A stretch of DNA of 64,000 nucleotides from Myxococcales bacterium (GTDB lineage Bacteria; Myxococcota_A; UBA9160; UBA4427): assembly GCA_014240165.1 (NCBI GenBank), contig JAAZXM010000002.1, positions 1 to 64,000 on the forward strand, given 5' to 3'. Below, in pieces: positions 4,229-59,646 of this stretch. How positions within the stretch are numbered: the first letter of the stretch is position 1; the number at the start of each line of letters is the position of its first letter. The notes beneath the pieces are model-generated. The model worked only from the letters and a program-made list of their open reading frames with translations, did not search any database and was not told the DNA's origin. The position numbers and the translations under genes were made by a program.

Positions 4229-5509
4229 CTAGCAGGGCGGCTCGGCGCGAGAAGACAGGGAATCCGCGGGTTGCTTTTCCGTGAACACCGAAGTCTTTGC
4301 GGGCCCGCCCAGCCGGGCAAGGAAATCGAGGGTGGCCCCCGCCACCTCGGGCCAGGCGTGGTGGGTTTCCAGCCGACGCCGAGCGGCGCCACCCAGCCTT
4401 TTTGCCTGGGCGGGGTCGGCCACGAGCCGAGCGAGTCCTGCGGCGAGTCCATCGGCGCCCTGGGCCTCGTCCACCAACCAGGCGGACTCGTCGTGACGCA
4501 GGCCCGGGGCCCGGCCGCTGAAAGCGAGGATGGGCCGTCCGGTTTCCATGTAATTGAGCAACTTGATGGGAAAGCCGCCGACGCGTCGTCGGGGGGCGAC
4601 CAGGCAATACGCGCCGTAGAGGAGCTTTCGCATTTCGCTGAAATCCTGCACGACAACATGACGAATCCGTCCTTCGTGACCCGGCAGCGCGGATGCGGTC
4701 TGATTGCGCGCCCCATCGTCGTGGGTTGCGATGACCAGGGGCGGCGCCGAGCCGGGTCGCTCGCTTTCGGCTCGGGCGAGCAATTCCAATTCCTGGTAGC
4801 GATCCAGGTTGCCCGAGTAGAGCGCATAGCGACCCGGCATCAGCCCGTGACGCGTGCAGGTCCGCATCACGCTCTCGGGCTCGGGCGCCGGCATGGGGGA
4901 AAAGCCGGGGGGAATTTGCGCGAGCGGTCCTCGGGCATGGGGCGCCAGTTCAGCCCCGGCCTCTTCGCTGAGTACGATGATCCCGTCCACTCGCCGGGCC
5001 AGGGCGCGGTCGATCAGGCGCCCTGCACGGTTCGCTTCATCCGCATGGCGCCCCGGCAGGTAGGCCGAGAGTTCGTGGCCGAGCAGAGTATGGGCGACGT
5101 AGATCACCGGCGTCCGGGTGCTGCGCCGGGAAAGCAGTGCGATGGCGGCGGCCTCGGCGTTGTGGGCCAGCACGAAGTCGAAGGGCCGGCCCTGGCGGCG
5201 CGCCTCGCGCGCGGCGCTGCGCCAACGCGCAAGCAGGGCGAGGTCGGCCACGGGCTTGCCCCAATTGGGACCCGAGCGCATGACCTTGGGCGAGAGGTGG
5301 ATGGACGCTGGCGCGCACTCGATATCGCTGGGACGTTCTCCCCGGCCCCGGCCATAGGAGAGCAGAAGCGGCTGCGCCCCGGCTTCGGCCAGGGCCCGGG
5401 TCTGGTCGGCAAAGAAAATCTGGGAGCCCTGGGGATAGGGGAAGGGAAATGCGCCCAGCACCGCGATTCGCGGCCCCCCCGCCTTGGCGCGGGCCGCACC
5501 CGCATTCAT
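4229..5509 (-). CDS. Glycosyltransferase family 4-like (GT-B fold)
   Basis: The 426-residue form begins at the ATG at 5509, whose first bases overlap the stop of the upstream GT2 gene as ATGA. A longer frame exists but its extra 89 residues look like shadow translation. The N-terminal Rossmann half has RIAVLGAFPFPYPQGSQ, and the C-terminal donor-binding half has GGFPIKLLNYMETGRPILAF, typical of GT4 enzymes using nucleotide sugars. Coupling to a dolichol-phosphate-mannose-synthase-like GT2 and a phosphodiesterase suggests surface glycan or glycolipid synthesis. The acceptor cannot be told from sequence. Confidence 0.85.
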   Translation of the reverse strand: MNAGAARAKAGGPRIAVLGAFPFPYPQGSQIFFADQTRALAEAGAQPLLLSYGRGRGERPSDIECAPASIHLSPKVMRSGPNWGKPVADLALLARWRSAAREARRQGRPFDFVLAHNAEAAAIALLSRRSTRTPVIYVAHTLLGHELSAYLPGRHADEANRAGRLIDRALARRVDGIIVLSEEAGAELAPHARGPLAQIPPGFSPMPAPEPESVMRTCTRHGLMPGRYALYSGNLDRYQELELLARAESERPGSAPPLVIATHDDGARNQTASALPGHEGRIRHVVVQDFSEMRKLLYGAYCLVAPRRRVGGFPIKLLNYMETGRPILAFSGRAPGLRHDESAWLVDEAQGADGLAAGLARLVADPAQAKRLGGAARRRLETHHAWPEVAGATLDFLARLGGPAKTSVFTEKQPADSLSSRAEPPC

Positions 5510-40613: not shown

Positions 40614-41846
40614 GTGAACCTCTCCGAAGACGTAACTCCCCTCACCCGTCCGGCCGCAGAGGCTCTGATCGACGCCGCGGTGGATGCAGGGGAAATGGCG
40701 CCGGGCGTGGCCCTCGAACTCGCCGCCAGTATCCGGGTTCCCGGCGTCCTCGACGCCTTGGCGGATGGGGCCTTCGCGAGCAAGCAGCGCCTCAAGGGCG
40801 ACATCATCACGGTCTCGCGGAACGTCTTTTTGCCGCTGACGAACCTGTGCCGCAACCGGTGTACCTATTGCAGCTTCGCCAAGTTGCCGGATTCTGCCGA
40901 AGCCCATACCTACTCCCTGGAAGAGGTCGAAGAGGTCATCCAGGGCGGGGTGGCCACGGGCTGCACCGAGGCCCTGATGTGCCTGGGGGATAAGCCCGAA
41001 GTCGCCTACGGGAGCCACCGCGAGTGGCTGGCCGAGCGCGGCTATCGCACCACCATCGATCTGGTGCTGGAGGCCTGCAAGCTCGCCGTGGCGGGCGGCA
41101 TGCTTCCCCATACCAACGCGGGGATTCTTTCGCGCGAGGAGATGGAGAGCCTTCGGCCCTGGAACGCCTCCATGGGTCTCATGATGGAGACCACGAGCGA
41201 GAGGCTGCGCGGCAAAGGGATGGCCCATTTTCATGCGCCGGACAAGGACCCGGCGGTTCGCATCCGCATGCATGAAGAAGCCGGGGAGCTTCGCATTCCC
41301 TTCACGAGTGGCCTGCTCCTGGGCATCGGCGAGAACGACGCCGAGCGCGTCGCCACCCTGATGACGATTCGGGATATCCACCGCCGCCACGGCCATATCC
41401 AGGAAGTCATTGTCCAGCCCTTCCACCCCAAGCCCGATACCCCCATGCGTGCGGTGGCGCCGATTCGCGATGACGAGGTGGTCGCCTGGGTGGCGTTGGC
41501 TCGGCTCATCCTCGGGCCTGAAATGAATGTCCAGGCCCCGCCGAATCTGGCTCCCCGGATGCTCGAGCGCCTCGCGCGCTCGGGGCTGAACGATTGGGGG
41601 GGCGTCTCCCCGGTCACCGTGGATTTCATCAATCCCGAGGCGCCCTGGCCCGCGCTTCGCCGCTTGAAGGAACTGACCCGGGACAGCGGCCAGGTTCTGA
41701 AGGATCGGGGCCCTGTTTACCCCGATTGGCTGCTCGAGCGACCCGAGTTCTTTGATCCGACACTGAAAAAACACCTGCTGCGCCTGGCTACCGACGAGGG
41801 CTATGCGCGGCGTCCCCACCACCAGTCCAAAGAGGAGGCTGCCTGA
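40614..41846 (+). CDS. cofG: FO synthase subunit 1 CofG (7,8-didemethyl-8-hydroxy-5-deazariboflavin synthase)
   Basis: A 410-residue radical-SAM enzyme starting at a GTG after GAAGGA. The cluster motif CRNRCTYCSFAK (CX3CX2C) is intact. PFHPKPDTPM and VDFINPEAPWP fit CofG. Together with CofH it builds the deazaflavin core (FO) of cofactor F420 from tyrosine and a riboflavin precursor. A TGATG junction joins it to cofH. The two subunits are separate rather than fused as in actinobacterial FbiC. Confidence 0.94.
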   Translation: MNLSEDVTPLTRPAAEALIDAAVDAGEMAPGVALELAASIRVPGVLDALADGAFASKQRLKGDIITVSRNVFLPLTNLCRNRCTYCSFAKLPDSAEAHTYSLEEVEEVIQGGVATGCTEALMCLGDKPEVAYGSHREWLAERGYRTTIDLVLEACKLAVAGGMLPHTNAGILSREEMESLRPWNASMGLMMETTSERLRGKGMAHFHAPDKDPAVRIRMHEEAGELRIPFTSGLLLGIGENDAERVATLMTIRDIHRRHGHIQEVIVQPFHPKPDTPMRAVAPIRDDEVVAWVALARLILGPEMNVQAPPNLAPRMLERLARSGLNDWGGVSPVTVDFINPEAPWPALRRLKELTRDSGQVLKDRGPVYPDWLLERPEFFDPTLKKHLLRLATDEGYARRPHHQSKEEAA

Positions 41847-43171
41847 TGTGGCAACGAATGATCGATGAAGTGAACCCGCGAGTGGCCGCCATCCTCGAAG
41901 CGGCCCTGGACGGCCGCGAGGTGTCGGAAGAAGACGCCGAGCTCCTGCTTTCCGTGGAGGGGCCCGATCAGCACGCGCTTTTCTGGGCCGCGGATCGGGC
42001 TCGCCAGGAGGACGTCGGGGATGACGTCACCTACGTGATCTGCCGAAACGTAAATTTCACCAATATCTGCTACGTGGGCTGTTCGTTCTGCGGCTTTGCG
42101 CGTCATAAGCATCAATCCGACGCCTACGTCCACGATATGGAGACCGTCCTGGCCAAGTGCGAACAGGCGGTGGAGCGCGGCGCGACGGAGATCTGCATTC
42201 AGGGGGGCATCCACCCTCAGAAGGATCACGAGCATTACCGGGAATTGGCCGCCACCATCAAGAACGCGTTTCCCCAGCTTCACCTCCACGCCTATTCCCC
42301 CGAGGAGGTCGATTGGGGCCACCGCAAGAGCGGGATGGAACTCGCCGATTATCTCCGCTGGCTGGTGGAGGCGGGTGTGAGCAGCTTGCCGGGTACGGCC
42401 GCCGAGATTCTCGACGACGAGATCCGTGAAATTCTCTCGCCGCGCAAGCTGAAAACGGCTCGCTGGGTAGAGATCATCAAGACCGCCCACTCCATCGGTC
42501 TGCCCACAACATCGACAGTGATGTACGGCCATATCGAGAGCCCGCGTCATGTGGCGGCCCATATGGGGCTGATTCGAGAGATTCAGAAAGAGACCGGCGG
42601 CTTTACCGAATTCGTTCCCCTCGGCTATATCCACGAACTCAACGAGCTCTACAACGTGCTCGGATCCCGGCCCGGTGCCACTGCGCCCGAGGATTTGCGC
42701 ATCATCGCGGTGGCCCGCCTCTTCCTGCGACCCTGGATCACGAATATCCAGATCTCCTGGGTCAAGATGGGCCATAAGCTGGGGCAGGTCGCTCTGGGTG
42801 CCGGGGCCAACGATTTCGGCGGAACCCTGATGGAAGAATCCATCAGCCGAGAATCGGGTTCGAAATTCGGCGAGAACACGGCGCCCGAGGATTTCCGGCG
42901 CTTGATTCGAGAAGTCGGCCGAGTTCCCGTGGAGCGCAATACCCTCTATGGCACGGTCAGGCGGTTCGACGATCCGGCCCTGGACCCGCCGTCCATGGAA
43001 CCGACGGCACAGCTGAGCGAGAGCGAGCCCGAAGCTGGCTATCCCGTCGCCAATTCCGTCGCCAACCCCGTCGACAACCGCGTCGACAACCCCGTCGACA
43101 ACCCCGTCGACAATCCCCTCGATAATCCCGCCGAGTCCCCCGAGCCTTCGCCCATGCGGGTGGTCTCCTAG
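41846..43171 (+). CDS. cofH: FO synthase subunit 2 CofH (5-amino-6-(D-ribitylamino)uracil-L-tyrosine 4-hydroxyphenyl transferase)
   Basis: A 441-residue radical-SAM enzyme. FTNICYVGCSFCGFARH carries CX3CX2C, and EICIQGGIHPQ and TAEILDDEIREILSP are CofH/MqnC-like segments. Context with cofG decides for CofH. The enzyme body ends near residue 375. A disordered tail follows with seven four-residue repeats (VANS/VANP/VDNR/VDNP/LDNP) that is not part of the family fold. ATG overlaps the cofG stop. Confidence 0.93.
   Translation: MWQRMIDEVNPRVAAILEAALDGREVSEEDAELLLSVEGPDQHALFWAADRARQEDVGDDVTYVICRNVNFTNICYVGCSFCGFARHKHQSDAYVHDMETVLAKCEQAVERGATEICIQGGIHPQKDHEHYRELAATIKNAFPQLHLHAYSPEEVDWGHRKSGMELADYLRWLVEAGVSSLPGTAAEILDDEIREILSPRKLKTARWVEIIKTAHSIGLPTTSTVMYGHIESPRHVAAHMGLIREIQKETGGFTEFVPLGYIHELNELYNVLGSRPGATAPEDLRIIAVARLFLRPWITNIQISWVKMGHKLGQVALGAGANDFGGTLMEESISRESGSKFGENTAPEDFRRLIREVGRVPVERNTLYGTVRRFDDPALDPPSMEPTAQLSESEPEAGYPVANSVANPVDNRVDNPVDNPVDNPLDNPAESPEPSPMRVVS
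43046..43129 (+). repeat. In-frame 12-bp tandem repeat in the cofH tail, seven units
   Basis: Units GTCGACAACCCC and close variants begin at 43046, 43058, 43070, 43082, 43094, 43106 and 43118. Each encodes Val-Asp-Asn-Pro or a variant. The length of 12 keeps the frame, so copy number can change without truncating the protein. Confidence 0.92.
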
Positions 43172-44667
43172 GCGGGCTTTGTCGGGTCGGATCGATCGGG
43201 GCTCCGCTCGCGGTCGGCCAGCAAGGTGTCGAGGCGTTCACCGAGCGCCTCGACCTGGTAGCGAAGCGGCGGTCGTTCCAGGATGCCGCGTTCGATCTTG
43301 CGCAGGGCGTTGCGGACCGCGGGCTGATCCCGCGCCAGGGCTTGGCCGATTTCGCCCACCGACGCATCGGTGTAGCGGCGGCACAGGTACATGGCGAGCT
43401 GTCTCGGGAGCAGAACCTGCTTCCGGCGGGAGCGGGAGGCCAGGGTATCGGGGCTCGATTGGAAGAAGCCGGCGACCACGGCGATCACGTCCCCCACACG
43501 GAGCCGCCGCCTGCGGGTGGGGGCTCCGGCCTTCTTCGTGATGGCGCTCTCGGTCAGCGCCCGGTCGATGGGGCTCTTCAGCAGGGAGGCGGTGGTGACG
43601 AGCTGAATCAGCACGCTCTCGAGGTCCCGGACGCTGCCCCGGATATTTTCAACCAGCAGGTCCAGGCAATCCCCGGGCAGGCGAATGCCCCCGTGGGCCG
43701 CTTTGCTCCGCAGGATGGCCCGTCGAACCTGGTGATCCGGGGGCTCGAGTTCGGCCAGGAAGCCTGCGCTCAGCTGGGATCGAATGCGCGCGCCGAGTTC
43801 GGGCATGTCCTGGGGAAGCCGGTCCCCGGTGAGCATCACCTTGCCCCCGGCGTCGAGGACATGCTGGACGGTATGGAAAAATTCGAGTTGGGTGGCGGAC
43901 TTGCTTTCGAGGAATTGCACGTCCTCCATCACGAAGAGCTCGTGCCGGCCCCGGTAGCGGCGCTTGAAATCGCTCGTCCGGTTGCTCCTCAGGGCCGAGA
44001 GAAATTGGTTGGTGAAGCTCTCCGAGGAGACGTATTTCACTGTGCAATCGCCCAGCCGGGCTGCTTCCGAGGCCACCGCTCGGGCGAGGTGGGTCTTTCC
44101 CATGCCGGGATCCGCCCGGAGGAAAAGCTGGTTGAGCGTACGCTGCTGGCCTCTCGCCATGGCGAAGGACGCTTCTCGGGCCAGGGCGTTGCAGGGGCCC
44201 ACCACGAAGCTGTCGAAGGTGTACTGCGCGGGTTTTGTCGCCACGGTGGAGGGCTCCCCGGCGCGGCGGCCGGGTGCAGAGCGAGGTCGAGGAGTCCGGG
44301 GTTGCGCGGCGGCCTTCCGGGTCGCTCTCGGCATCGGGGTGGCCGGGGCGGGTGCGATCGCGGCCGCGGCGTCCGTGGGAATAGGCGCCTGGGCGGCGGG
44401 TTTGGTTGCAGCCGAGGCGCGGCACGTGTCCACCGCGAGGGCGATTTCAATGGAACCGCCGGTTTCGGCTTTCAAGCACGCATCGATGCGTGGCAGAAAA
44501 TGTCGCCGGATCCGCTCGCGATGGAAGGTCGAGGGACAGACGAGCAAAAGTCCCTCGTCTTCGGAACGGGGCTCCAGGGGTTGGAGCCACGTCTCATAGG
44601 AGAACGCGGGTACTTCGTTTTGAAGACGGTGCAGAACGCCGTCCCAGACCTCGGGGGTAAAGGCCAA
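43168..44667 (-). CDS. dnaA: DnaA-family initiator with divergent DNA-recognition motif
   Basis: A 499-residue protein with the full DnaA layout: domain I (VWDGVLHRLQNEVPAFSYETWLQPL), Ala/Pro linker, AAA+ (Walker A ADPGMGKTHLARAV near 186, Walker B ELFVMEDVQFLESK) and domain IV (QVLLPRQLAMYLCRRYTD, SVGEIGQALARDQPAVRNAL). The near-universal RDHTTV contact motif reads RDQPAV, one residue is missing before it, and the first Walker A Gly is Ala. The start is a TTG at 44667. No dnaN or recF is near. It may be the main initiator with altered box preference or a second DnaA-like protein. Confidence 0.88.
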   Translation of the reverse strand: MAFTPEVWDGVLHRLQNEVPAFSYETWLQPLEPRSEDEGLLLVCPSTFHRERIRRHFLPRIDACLKAETGGSIEIALAVDTCRASAATKPAAQAPIPTDAAAAIAPAPATPMPRATRKAAAQPRTPRPRSAPGRRAGEPSTVATKPAQYTFDSFVVGPCNALAREASFAMARGQQRTLNQLFLRADPGMGKTHLARAVASEAARLGDCTVKYVSSESFTNQFLSALRSNRTSDFKRRYRGRHELFVMEDVQFLESKSATQLEFFHTVQHVLDAGGKVMLTGDRLPQDMPELGARIRSQLSAGFLAELEPPDHQVRRAILRSKAAHGGIRLPGDCLDLLVENIRGSVRDLESVLIQLVTTASLLKSPIDRALTESAITKKAGAPTRRRRLRVGDVIAVVAGFFQSSPDTLASRSRRKQVLLPRQLAMYLCRRYTDASVGEIGQALARDQPAVRNALRKIERGILERPPLRYQVEALGERLDTLLADRERSPDRSDPTKPA

Positions 44668-45058
44668 TTCGGGTCATGCCAGCCCGTACGCGGTGCGTCG
44701 GGTATTCGGGGGGATTTGTGTGCTACGCGCCGATCCGAGAAAAAAATTTTTCGGGCTGGCCGTCGAGACGACCGCAGTTAACCACAGCTTCACTTTGCTT
44801 CGCAAAGGCGGGATCCGCGATTAAGGGCAATCCCCATGTTCTCAATAATTCGACTGAAATGCGGTTCTAGATCCCTGTGAACCGCTGTTTCGAAGTCTGA
44901 ATGCTGTTGTGCTCGAAGGGTTTCCGAAACACAAGTGATGCAGATTCCGCGTACCTGTTCTGTGTAGATGGCGCTCACCCGCACCTTGGGAAATCTCCAT
45001 TTTTCTCGATATAGCGAGAAAATGCATTTTTTTTCGAAATCTTGTGAAGGCGTGGATT
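44668..45058. other. AT-rich non-coding region beside dnaA (candidate origin or regulatory region)
   Basis: No convincing gene in 391 bases. It is much more AT-rich than its surroundings, with GAGAAAAAAATTTTTC near 44730 and T-runs near 45028-45034. TTAACCACA at 44778-44786 differs by one base from the DnaA box TTATCCACA. A perfect 8-bp hairpin (TTTTCTCG/CGAGAAAA) lies at 45001-45022. This could hold the dnaA promoter, a replication origin, or both. Only one DnaA-box-like site was found by eye. Confidence 0.4.
45001..45022. terminator. AT-rich hairpin downstream of the Lon-domain gene
   Basis: TTTTCTCG, a six-base loop, then CGAGAAAA: a perfect 8-bp stem flanked by A and T runs. On the leftward strand it lies 37 bases after the Lon-domain gene stop. 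It may end that transcript before dnaA. It could alternatively be part of an unwinding element. Confidence 0.45.
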
Positions 45059-45748
45059 TCATTGCAAAAGGTCCGAACCCGGTGCGATGCGACCGACGAG
45101 TTCGCCAAGGCGAACGCGCAGGAATTCGTCGAGCATTCGGTAGCGAGGCTCAGGGCCCGAAGCTTCAAGCAGTTTTTGTTTATCGAGAACTCCGAGATCG
45201 GTTGCCTGGGCGACCACGTGGACGAACTGTGTATCGGTGAATTCTTTCAGCTTGCCCAGGGACTCCACCCGCTTTCGCGCGGCCTCCGCATCTTGTGCCG
45301 GACCCGTGCTGCGAGCGATCTCGCAAAGGGTTTCAAAGATTCGCGCACGCAGCGCCGTCGGCCCGCCTTCGGCCTCGGAAACGCTCTCCTCGGCCAGGCT
45401 TTCGATTCGGGCCGTTCGGTAGAGTTCTGCCCGGGGGTGCTCCTCGAGAATGCGAAAACGTTTCGTCGCCACCAATAAGATGTCCAAGCTGCCGTCTGGC
45501 CTTTCGCGGGCTTGGCGGATTTCGCCCTCGCAGCCGATCTCGAAAATCCCGGGGTCTCCGTCGATCTCTGCCAGGGCCTCGGGCCGGATCGCCACCATGC
45601 CGATACGCCGATTCGACGTCAGGGCGGCTCGGGTCATGGCGCGGTAACGGGGTTCGAAAATGTAGAGCGGGACGCTGAGGGTAGGAAAGAGCACCACGCC
45701 CGGGAGCGGGAAGAGTGGGAGGGCTTCTGGGCCGAGATTGGATGTCAT
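45059..45748 (-). CDS. Lon N-terminal (substrate-binding) domain protein
   Basis: A 229-residue protein from the ATG at 45748 (GAGGA upstream). EALPLFPLPGVVLFPTLSVPLYIFEPRYR is the classic start of the Lon substrate-binding (LAN/PUA-like) domain, and the helical part follows to the end. There is no AAA+ or protease domain, so it is one of the stand-alone Lon-N proteins. Their function is poorly known; they may bind misfolded or specific protein clients. Confidence 0.9.
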   Translation of the reverse strand: MTSNLGPEALPLFPLPGVVLFPTLSVPLYIFEPRYRAMTRAALTSNRRIGMVAIRPEALAEIDGDPGIFEIGCEGEIRQARERPDGSLDILLVATKRFRILEEHPRAELYRTARIESLAEESVSEAEGGPTALRARIFETLCEIARSTGPAQDAEAARKRVESLGKLKEFTDTQFVHVVAQATDLGVLDKQKLLEASGPEPRYRMLDEFLRVRLGELVGRIAPGSDLLQ

Positions 45749-46359: not shown

Positions 46360-46572
46360 CTAGCCGGACGCGGCCTTCTGCTGCTCGTCGTACTCTTCGA
46401 GATTGTTAGGTCCCTCAACGACCTGGGTCGAGATGTTGTCGCAGGCGAGGTTCTTGTCGAGGATCTCGCTCAGGAGGCCTTCGACCGTCAATTCATCAAA
46501 CTCTTCGAAGGCGTCTTCAAGCCCGCCCCCGGTGACACTGAACTCTAGGTTGAGCTTGATCTTTACGTCCAT
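46360..46572 (-). CDS. Small acidic protein of unknown function
   Basis: A 70-residue frame starting at the ATG at 46572 with SD GAGGAGAG upstream. It starts MDVKIKLNLEFSVTGGGL, then two strongly acidic helices and a single Cys. No family recognised. The good ribosome-binding site and lack of competing frames favour a real gene. It lies downstream (on its strand) of the hairpin-rich region. Confidence 0.6.
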   Translation of the reverse strand: MDVKIKLNLEFSVTGGGLEDAFEEFDELTVEGLLSEILDKNLACDNISTQVVEGPNNLEEYDEQQKAASG

Positions 46573-46876
46573 CGTTTGCTCTCCTCGCTGTCTGCGTGGT
46601 GGCGCTGAGTAGCCGGGCTCTTGCCGATCAGCCGGGCGACTGTTCCCCGGGCTCCGCTCCGCCCCCGTGGTCAACTCCGCGGGGCAAGCGTGAGTGCCTG
46701 CTTTGTTCTTTGGCCTTTCGCTTCCGGCTATGGGTGCTCAACCACACCTTCGTGCTTTCGTCACTGATGGCCCGAACGCGTGAGTTGGCCTATTGCCGAC
46801 GGGTCGCCCCTCTTCTCTCTCTGCCAAAAAACGTACACTCGGGCTGAACATTGCCGCTTTCTTCGCGCAAACCGGC

Positions 46877-47049
46877 TCTGATCAGAATCTCTCATCCGTT
46901 CCCCTGGGTGGACACCTCTAGCTGACGGTGCCTCAACCCCTTGGGAGCGCTGAGGATACACCGGCCCTCTCACGTAGGCTACGCGAAGAGGGCTCAATTT
47001 CAGCTATTTACCTATCTGAAGACCCGAGATAGGGAAATCTGATCAGATT
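46877..47049. ncRNA. Candidate structured RNA or regulatory element flanked by TCTGATCAGA palindromes
   Basis: The 537-base gap 46573-47109 has no gene I can support, but it holds a run of perfect inverted repeats. GGTG+CCTCA (46927-46935) pairs with TGAGG+CACC (46951-46962). GCCCTCT/AGAGGGC (46964-46993) encloses CGTAG/CTACG. CCTATCT/AGATAGG is at 47011-47033. The palindrome AATCTGATCAGATT is at 47036-47049, and its core TCTGATCAGA recurs at 46877-46886. Strand is unknown. No known RNA family was recognised. Confidence 0.4.
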
Positions 47050-47109: not shown

Positions 47110-48906
47110 TTAGCCGGGCACTTGCCGGTCGCCGACCGATTTGCCGGATTCGGGCGCCGGGGTGTCGAGGTGCTTCTCCCTTTGGAGGTCTTGGGCCACG
47201 TGGGCGTCCGCGGTTCGCTCACTGTGGCATTGGGCCGGTTCGCTCTCCCCGCCCATCTCCTGTCGAGTCTTGCTGGCGAGGCGGTGCAGTTGCTCGGGCG
47301 ACAGGACGCCCCTCTTCTGCAGGATTTCTTTCTGCTCCGCGCTCAAAGCGTCGGAAACCTTCGGCTTTTCCCATGCGTACGCCTCGTCCTTGCCCGAGAC
47401 GAAGACGCTGATCTCCTTGCTGATGCGCACGGCGCACCAGTCGTGGCCGCACATGGCGCAGAAATCCGTATCCACGTCCATGTCCTCGTCGTGGAAGGCC
47501 CGGGCCGTGTCGGTATCAAAGGCCAATTCGAAATGCTTTTCCCAGTTGAGGGCCGCGCGGGCCTTGGTGAGTTCATCGTCCCAATCCCGAGTGCCGGGAA
47601 TCCCCAGCGCAACGTCCGCCGAGTGGGCGGCGATCCGGTACGCCACGCAGCCCTGCTTGACGTCATCGCGTTTGGGCAAGCCCAGGTGTTCCTTGGGGGT
47701 CACGTAGCAGAGCATGCTGGCCCCGTGGTAGGCGGCGGCCGTGGCCCCGATGGCGCTGGTGATGTGGTCGTAGCCCGGGAAAACGTCGGTGACCAGGGGG
47801 CCGAGGACATAGAAGGGAGCGCCGTGACAGATCTGGCGCTGGAGTTTCATGTTGTATTCCACCTGGTCGAAGGGCACGTGGCCGGGCCCCTCGATCATGA
47901 CCTGCACCCCATGGCGCCAGGCGCGTTCCGTGAGTTCGCCCAGGGCGCTGAGTTCCCCGAGTTGGGCCGCATCCGTGGCATCGGCGAGGCCGCCCGGGCG
48001 CAGCCCGTCTCCGATGGAGAAGGTGACGTCGTAGCGGCGCATGAGGAGGCAGATGTCGTCCCAGATCTCGGCCATCAGGTTTTCGCGCCCATGGTGAAGC
48101 ATCCATTTGGCGAGCAGCGAACCGCCGCGGCTGACGATGCCGATGAGGCGCTTGGCTACGCCGTCGAGGTGCGCCCGGCGCACGCCGGCATGGATCGTGA
48201 AATAATCGACCCCCTGCTGGGCCTGGGCTTCGAGGCAGGCCAAGACCATCTCGCGGTCCAGGTCCTCGATACTCCGCCCCAGGATCATGGAGTAGATGGG
48301 CACGGTGCCGATGGGCGCCGTCGAGTTTTTGATGATGGCATCCCGGGTGGCATCCAGGTCGCCGCCGGTGGATAGATCCATCACGGTGTCGGCTCCCCAG
48401 CGCAGGGCCCACTCGAGTTTCTCGACCTCCTCGCTGCTCCCGCTGGAGATCGGTGAAGCGCCCATATTGGCGTTGATCTTGGTTCGGCTGGCGCGGCCGA
48501 TCGCCATGGGGTCGAGTTCCATGCCCAGGTGAACCTTATTGGCGGGCACCACCATGCGCCCGGCGGCGATTTCCTCCCGGACCTGCTCGGCACTCAGATG
48601 GGGCTCGCGTTGGGCGACGCGCTCCATTTCCGGTGTGGTGATGCCGAGGCGCGCGTGCTCGAGTTGCGTGATGGGGACGAAGCCCTCGGGCGGCCGCCAA
48701 TGGCCCTCTTCGCAAACCCAATTCGCGGGCATGAAATCCCACGCGGTCTTTTCGGAAACCAGCGGCATTCCCGGCGTATCGGGAGACGAGAAGGCGAGCG
48801 GCCCGCCGACGTCGGCAGGGTTCGCGAAGCTCCCGGGGTTCGTACCCAGCCCGCGGCTCGAGGGGTTGTTACCCGTTTTGGGCAGCGGCGGGCGGACGTT
48901 GGTCAT
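47110..48906 (-). CDS. thiC: Phosphomethylpyrimidine synthase ThiC
   Basis: A 598-residue radical-SAM enzyme from the ATG at 48906 (SD GAGGAG). It has the non-canonical C-terminal cluster motif DFCAMCGHDWCAVR (CX2CX4C) and the conserved body segments HIGMELDPMAIG-like VHLGMELDPMAIG, VMDLSTGGD and MIEGPGHVP. It converts aminoimidazole ribotide to HMP phosphate, the pyrimidine half of thiamine. No TPP riboswitch was recognised in its leader. Confidence 0.97.
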   Translation of the reverse strand: MTNVRPPLPKTGNNPSSRGLGTNPGSFANPADVGGPLAFSSPDTPGMPLVSEKTAWDFMPANWVCEEGHWRPPEGFVPITQLEHARLGITTPEMERVAQREPHLSAEQVREEIAAGRMVVPANKVHLGMELDPMAIGRASRTKINANMGASPISSGSSEEVEKLEWALRWGADTVMDLSTGGDLDATRDAIIKNSTAPIGTVPIYSMILGRSIEDLDREMVLACLEAQAQQGVDYFTIHAGVRRAHLDGVAKRLIGIVSRGGSLLAKWMLHHGRENLMAEIWDDICLLMRRYDVTFSIGDGLRPGGLADATDAAQLGELSALGELTERAWRHGVQVMIEGPGHVPFDQVEYNMKLQRQICHGAPFYVLGPLVTDVFPGYDHITSAIGATAAAYHGASMLCYVTPKEHLGLPKRDDVKQGCVAYRIAAHSADVALGIPGTRDWDDELTKARAALNWEKHFELAFDTDTARAFHDEDMDVDTDFCAMCGHDWCAVRISKEISVFVSGKDEAYAWEKPKVSDALSAEQKEILQKRGVLSPEQLHRLASKTRQEMGGESEPAQCHSERTADAHVAQDLQREKHLDTPAPESGKSVGDRQVPG

Positions 48907-49073
48907 GGCTGCACTCCTCATCGGTTGTGGCGGGCCAACCGCCCCGCCCCCGTCCGGATACCCTATCACGCGCTCCACCCAGACGCCCCGAGCAAGCTGT
49001 CACCGAAGCAGCGATATTTCACCGGCGCGTGGCGTGTGGCCGACTATGCTAGCGGTCAACCTGGGAGCGAAGC

Positions 49074-59464: not shown

Positions 59465-59469
59465 GGCGC

Positions 59470-59645
59470 GGATCGGGGTCGGGGATCCGCTCAGTCGGAA
59501 GCCCACTCCTTCGGCGGATCCCCGACCCCGATCCGGGGCTCGGTCTACCGGAAACCCACCCTTCGGCGGATCCCTGACCCCGATCCGGGGCTCGGTCTAC
59601 CGGAAACCCAGCCCTCGGCGGGGACCTGACCTCGCTCTGGGGTTG
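59470..59645. repeat. Tandem 52-bp repeats with a 21-bp perfect inverted repeat
   Basis: GGATCGGGGTCGGGGATCCGC (59470-59490) is the exact reverse complement of 59514-59534, giving a very stable stem. The right arm belongs to a 52-bp unit that is repeated at 59510-59561 and 59562-59613, with a decayed third copy from 59614. It fills the gap between the convergent SDR and MBL genes and could act as a two-way terminator. Confidence 0.9.
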
Positions 59646-59646
59646 G

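Follow-up and report, generated by a model that had tools for sequence, protein, structure and literature searches.

A conserved promoter-like region, probably with an operator site, beneath a cluster of lineage-specific palindromes in a Myxococcales genome

What is the role of a short intergenic stretch that is crowded with inverted repeats, and is it the repeats that matter? The question is raised by positions 46877-47049 of a 64,000-nt window (the whole stretch of DNA that was analysed, positions 1 to 64,000 of contig JAAZXM010000002.1 from a Myxococcales bacterium). The first-pass annotation saw here a dense set of perfect hairpins flanked by two TCTGATCAGA palindromes, and offered as explanations an unrecognised ncRNA, a leader for a 70-residue protein, a protein-binding array or a small mobile element. 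Comparison with related genomes points instead to a sigma-70-type promoter and the start of the leader of the 70-residue protein gene, on the minus strand and with an operator-like site, a reading to which a probability of about 0.83 can be given. Most likely, a real place was flagged for the wrong reason, as a promoter/operator region that is wrapped in lineage-specific palindromes. The features of the locus are as follows.

46360-46572, minus strand: 70-aa ORF (MDVKIKLNLEFSVTGGG...), the gene that the promoter would serve
46573-46946, minus strand: putative 5' leader of about 374 nt, its start placed from the -10 element
46877-46886: palindrome TCTGATCAGA, inside the leader, not kept in relatives
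46953-46958, minus strand: candidate -10 element TATCCT, conserved as TATNNT
46959-46962, minus strand: conserved GGTG directly before the -10 element, part of GKTGTATNNT
46964-46993: hairpin GCCCTC..GAGGGC, overlapping the -35 element and the spacer, peculiar to this genome
46977-46982, minus strand: candidate -35 element GTAGCC, 18 bp from the -10 hexamer
46995-47011, minus strand: upstream conserved site GTAAATAGCTGAAATTG, at about -49 to -65, probable operator or activator site
47006-47017/47027-47038: inverted repeat with 12-nt arms, 92% complementary, one arm entering the upstream conserved site, in this genome only
47036-47049: 14-bp palindrome AATCTGATCAGATT, upstream of the promoter, containing TCTGATCAGA at 47038-47047, not kept in relatives
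47110-48978, minus strand: thiC (Pfam PF01964, 1e-175), the upstream neighbour on the same strand

The segment is free of genes, as had been said, in that no overlapping gene has a Pfam match or support from relatives. The two TCTGATCAGA palindromes and the 14-bp palindrome are present as described, and the hairpins are real, although the 12-nt inverted repeat is not perfect. The segment was also said to be denser in hairpins than any other intergenic region of the window, which does not hold given that 59465-59646 carries a longer perfect inverted repeat of 22 bp (59469-59490/59514-59535). This second region lies between converging ORFs, also contains two 52-nt tandem copies that are 96% identical, and is possibly a bidirectional terminator or a repeat element. 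Only two copies of TCTGATCAGA exist in the 4.27-Mb genome, both at this locus and 161 bp apart. Their number matches composition, with 1.35 copies expected per 64 kb when one mismatch is allowed, and the sole oddity is their closeness, which was spotted post hoc. The palindromes are missing at the corresponding places in the same-genus relatives G001-G003, and relatives vary freely in the spacer that the hairpin at 46964-46993 overlaps, with no equivalent stem. By this comparison, the palindromes and hairpins appear to have arisen in this lineage and to be dispensable for the proposed promoter function.

What the relatives share lies on the minus strand. The conserved core, RTAGCC-N14-GKTGTATNNT (46953-46982 in the window), is preceded by GTAAA..GCTGAAA, and the spacing of the element is kept without indels in nearly all species. 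When the whole segment was used as a nucleotide query against 98 relatives, just the core of about 60 nt matched, in two genomes of the same genus; a third match, in locus L004, falls within a long ORF and was set aside as chance. The pattern GAGGATACACCG..TCAGCTATTTAC spans exactly 60 nt in four genomes with a differing middle, and over 26 loci of the family an ungapped minus-strand block can be written as GTAAA-N5-TGAAA ... RTAGCC-N14-GKTGTATNNT. Within the genus, GTAAATAGCTGA is found at this locus only in each genome that has it. An open frame through the core was considered and rejected, as all three forward frames of GTAAATAGCTGA contain stops and the reverse frame, open in some relatives, is also stopped. 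The core pattern occurs in 34 of 148 genomes, and a reversed control pattern in none of the 148. It is found once per genome, except on two partial contigs of the incomplete G003, which hold two versions of the element, one adjoining thiC (TATCCT) and the other adjoining the 70-aa ORF (TATTGT), on contigs C145 and C235; two species are probably mixed in the G003 bin.

A 62-position profile of the element was used to extend the comparison. Its best match lies upstream of the ORF homologue in all 55 loci, which come from four families of the order, and the 70-aa ORF is downstream on the same strand every time. The profile was trained on 31 of these loci, and in each of the 24 that form the independent part the match exceeds the next best place in the locus. 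Among 84,980 species scanned there are 27 matches, of which 17 are in metagenome bins of Deltaproteobacteria/Myxococcota and 10 are scattered elsewhere. The ORF follows on the same strand, 121-413 nt downstream, in 16 of the 17, and the remaining one sits at a contig end; the 10 scattered matches lack the ORF and look like chance. The sequence, position and spacing of the element, and its order-wide conservation relative to the ORF, can be read directly from the genomes.

Farther out, in family f12 of the same class but outside the order, the profile upstream of the ORF is not convincingly above background; by eye, GTAGCG and TTATAG stand at similar places in loci L153 and L156. In genus g57 of the same phylum, ATAGCC-N14-GGTGTATCCT is also found upstream of a ribonuclease-J-like ORF (L060), and at L061 the core pattern is followed by a similar protein start, MPK[ST]KK, which could reflect a shared promoter type or coincidence.

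Sigma-70 promoters have the consensus TTGACA at -35 and TATAAT at -10, separated by 17 +/- 1 bp, and transcription starts about 7 nt past the -10 element. The core resembles such a promoter in that its hexamers are 18 bp apart, a free spacer lies between them, TATNNT keeps T-A-T and the last T, TTGGCC takes the place of the -35 element in several relatives, and an A/T-rich upstream stretch is present in many. The -10 element is variously TATCCT, TATGCT, TATGAT, TATCTT or TATTGT, such that the middle drifts while the outer bases are fixed, and TATNNT is retained in the 55 profile matches (T-12, A-11, T-7). The 14-nt spacer is free in sequence and constant in length, which fits polymerase binding rather than an RNA helix. 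Information is highest at the -35 and -10 elements, and in the window's family it rises again over the upstream site.

The element also departs from the type. Its -35 element is RTAGCC in the window's family, with TTGGCC in six genomes of the sister families f4/f7 (L121, L124, L129, L134, L142 and L144), and its extra conserved GKTG is shifted by one base relative to a classical extended -10 element (TGn). A simple consensus promoter scan finds nothing here because GTAGCC is far from TTGACA, and so the promoter assignment rests on comparative evidence. Also against a promoter, the leader is long and mostly unconserved; the distance from the proposed start to the ATG is 374 nt in the window and 78-454 nt in relatives. 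The proposed promoter is ordinary in kind; its conservation across an order, almost without indels, exceeds in depth what promoters usually show, which also speaks against this reading.

What we infer is that the region is transcribed, and from where, by which class of sigma factor, and that the upstream site is bound by a protein. RNA polymerase with a housekeeping-type sigma factor would bind GTAGCC and TATCCT, transcription would begin near 46946 on the minus strand, as judged from the position of the -10 element, and a regulator would bind GTAAATAGCTGAAATTG just upstream of the core. The suggestion that the segment is a leader for the 70-residue protein is broadly supported, as promoter plus 5' leader of that gene, by the conserved promoter-type sequence of the minus strand and not by the hairpins.

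The order on the minus strand is thiC, the segment and then the 70-aa ORF. G001 and G003 likewise have thiC next door; other genera have a different gene upstream, and the element still accompanies the 70-aa ORF. TPP riboswitches are THI elements in the leaders of thiamine genes such as thiC, and the setting beside thiC is similar. However, the element is downstream of thiC and outside its leader, on the wrong side for such a riboswitch, and has no Rfam match, and this candidate was rejected. Elsewhere in the window, dnaA (43168-44667, minus strand, with all three DnaA domains) adjoins a CofH/MqnC-type radical SAM gene (41846-43171, plus strand), and the DNA ahead of dnaA, at about 44670-45060, is a candidate for a replication origin.

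The upstream site GTAAATAGCTGAAATTG is conserved within the family as TAAA..cctGAaAtTgcG, and a regulator probably binds there. As at class I/II activator or repressor promoters, GTAAA..GCTGAAA is set at a fixed distance, about 13-29 bp, ahead of the -35 element. In genus g5 a similar site is 10 bp farther upstream, which is one helical turn; this apparent one-turn shift, also reminiscent of class I/II operator sites, is suggestive and comes from one lineage, and between genera the distance from site to core is otherwise unchanged. Unlike the sites of known operator systems, it matches no known site family and is present at this locus alone in the genus. In the window's family the upstream and downstream arms look complementary, but an RNA stem formed from them was rejected: pairing within a species is no better than across species (64 of 300 permutations are as good), as expected of a DNA site. 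Of the proposed protein-binding array, then, a probable binding site is retained on the strength of the conserved minus-strand sequence, and the hairpins are dropped as evidence for it.

The palindromes could themselves be operators. The two TCTGATCAGA copies are perfect, sit on either side of the promoter with centres at about -96 and +65, and are absent elsewhere in the genome, so that a dimeric regulator might bind both and loop the DNA around the promoter, as a lineage-specific layer above the conserved one. This is unlikely, given that they are absent at these places in G001-G003, that 10-bp palindromes are common by chance and the pair was noticed post hoc, and that no candidate regulator is at hand.

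A different possibility is that the conserved block is mainly leader RNA, in which a hairpin in the first 40 nt would govern translation of the 70-aa mRNA or its stability, with the promoter there only incidentally. The case for it comes from families f4/f7 (L117-L144), in which the leader carries a hairpin, UGAAAU-N8-AUUUCA, at about +10 to +35. Its arms covary, being ACGAGAT/ATCTCGT in L127, CCGAA/TTCGG in L122 and CTCCTTGAAAAA/TTTTTCAAGGAG in L136, and none of 400 permutations reaches the arm pairing observed within species. This test pools related species and ignores relatedness within families, and a few arms are misplaced by the automatic anchor, so that the covarying hairpin is evidence, not proof, and is limited to the sister families; symmetric evolution of an operator could mimic such covariation. 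Part of the conserved region may nonetheless act as RNA in f4/f7. In the window's own family the same test gives no signal (291 of 400 permutations are as good), neither arm is present in recognisable form in the window's genus, and conservation is strongest at bases that precede the proposed transcription start. Leader RNA as the main role of the block is therefore quite unlikely, and the promoter with its operator-like site remains the preferred account.

The hairpins had first suggested an unrecognised ncRNA, here taken as a structured RNA, some 171 nt long, whose closing stem is formed by the two TCTGATCAGA 10-mers, the only ones in the genome. Folding does lend this some weight. The folding energy of the 187-nt region is -78.7 kcal/mol on the minus strand (z -4.1) and -75.7 kcal/mol on the plus strand (z -5.0), and none of 200 shuffles folds as low on either strand. 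For comparison, the intergenic tile that covers 59465-59646 has a z of -4.4, and tile 4676-4862, which lies within an ORF, has a z of -6.4. However, the homologous 187-nt regions of 54 relatives have mean z values of -0.6/-0.7, like random sequence, and no helix of the window is found again, or covaries, in relatives. The compensatory changes proposed as a check were looked for in relatives, and the arms do not covary in the window's family. A closing stem of other sequence in the relatives is not better than a free choice of helix, given that the best unconstrained outer helix scores 12.9 in the window and 14.9, 13.3 and 12.5 in relatives, with unrelated sequence. Rfam has no match to the region at the gathering score and nothing in the whole window; with E up to 10 no match overlaps the region, and there is one chance match outside it. 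Finally, a stretch of 14 nt within the conserved core varies freely in sequence at a fixed length, a pattern that no helix accounts for. The ncRNA is very unlikely on these grounds.

Paired repeats that flank a promoter also bring to mind a small palindromic mobile element, REP- or MITE-like, or a promoter segment that can invert. This is extremely improbable: the second genomic copy that was to be counted is lacking and the segment, in contrast to REP, BIME and MITE-like elements with their several copies, is single-copy, which refutes a repeat family, and the promoter faces the ORF in the same orientation in all relatives.

The gene downstream of the proposed promoter is itself widely kept. 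Of the 30 genomes of the window's own family, 26 carry a homologue of the ORF, as do 15 of 17 and 13 of 14 in two sister families and all 11 in f12. The protein family has 18 invariant columns among 14 diverse members, and no Pfam or NCBIfam family matches the 70-aa ORF. An AlphaFold2 model of the protein shows a beta-alpha-alpha-beta-alpha arrangement (pLDDT 86, pTM 0.58), and a structure search with this model gave no significant match among solved structures. Sequence matches to PPR repeats were discounted, as they cover 23 residues of one helix only. A literature search found nothing.

In short, selection has not preserved the conspicuous palindromes; what it keeps is a probable promoter region that is unusually well conserved, in a poorly studied group of uncultured Myxococcota-like bacteria, ahead of a small-protein gene that almost all genomes searched in that group possess. 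Should the upstream site prove to be an operator, it would offer a direct handle on the regulator and on the role of the protein family. More speculatively, and on balance improbably, the region might serve a circuit dedicated to this protein of 65-70 aa, in which a regulator, possibly the protein itself, reads GTAAA..CTGAAA, and in which control has partly moved to the leader hairpin in the sister families. Were this true, a single order would contain a switch of one regulatory signal between DNA and RNA forms.
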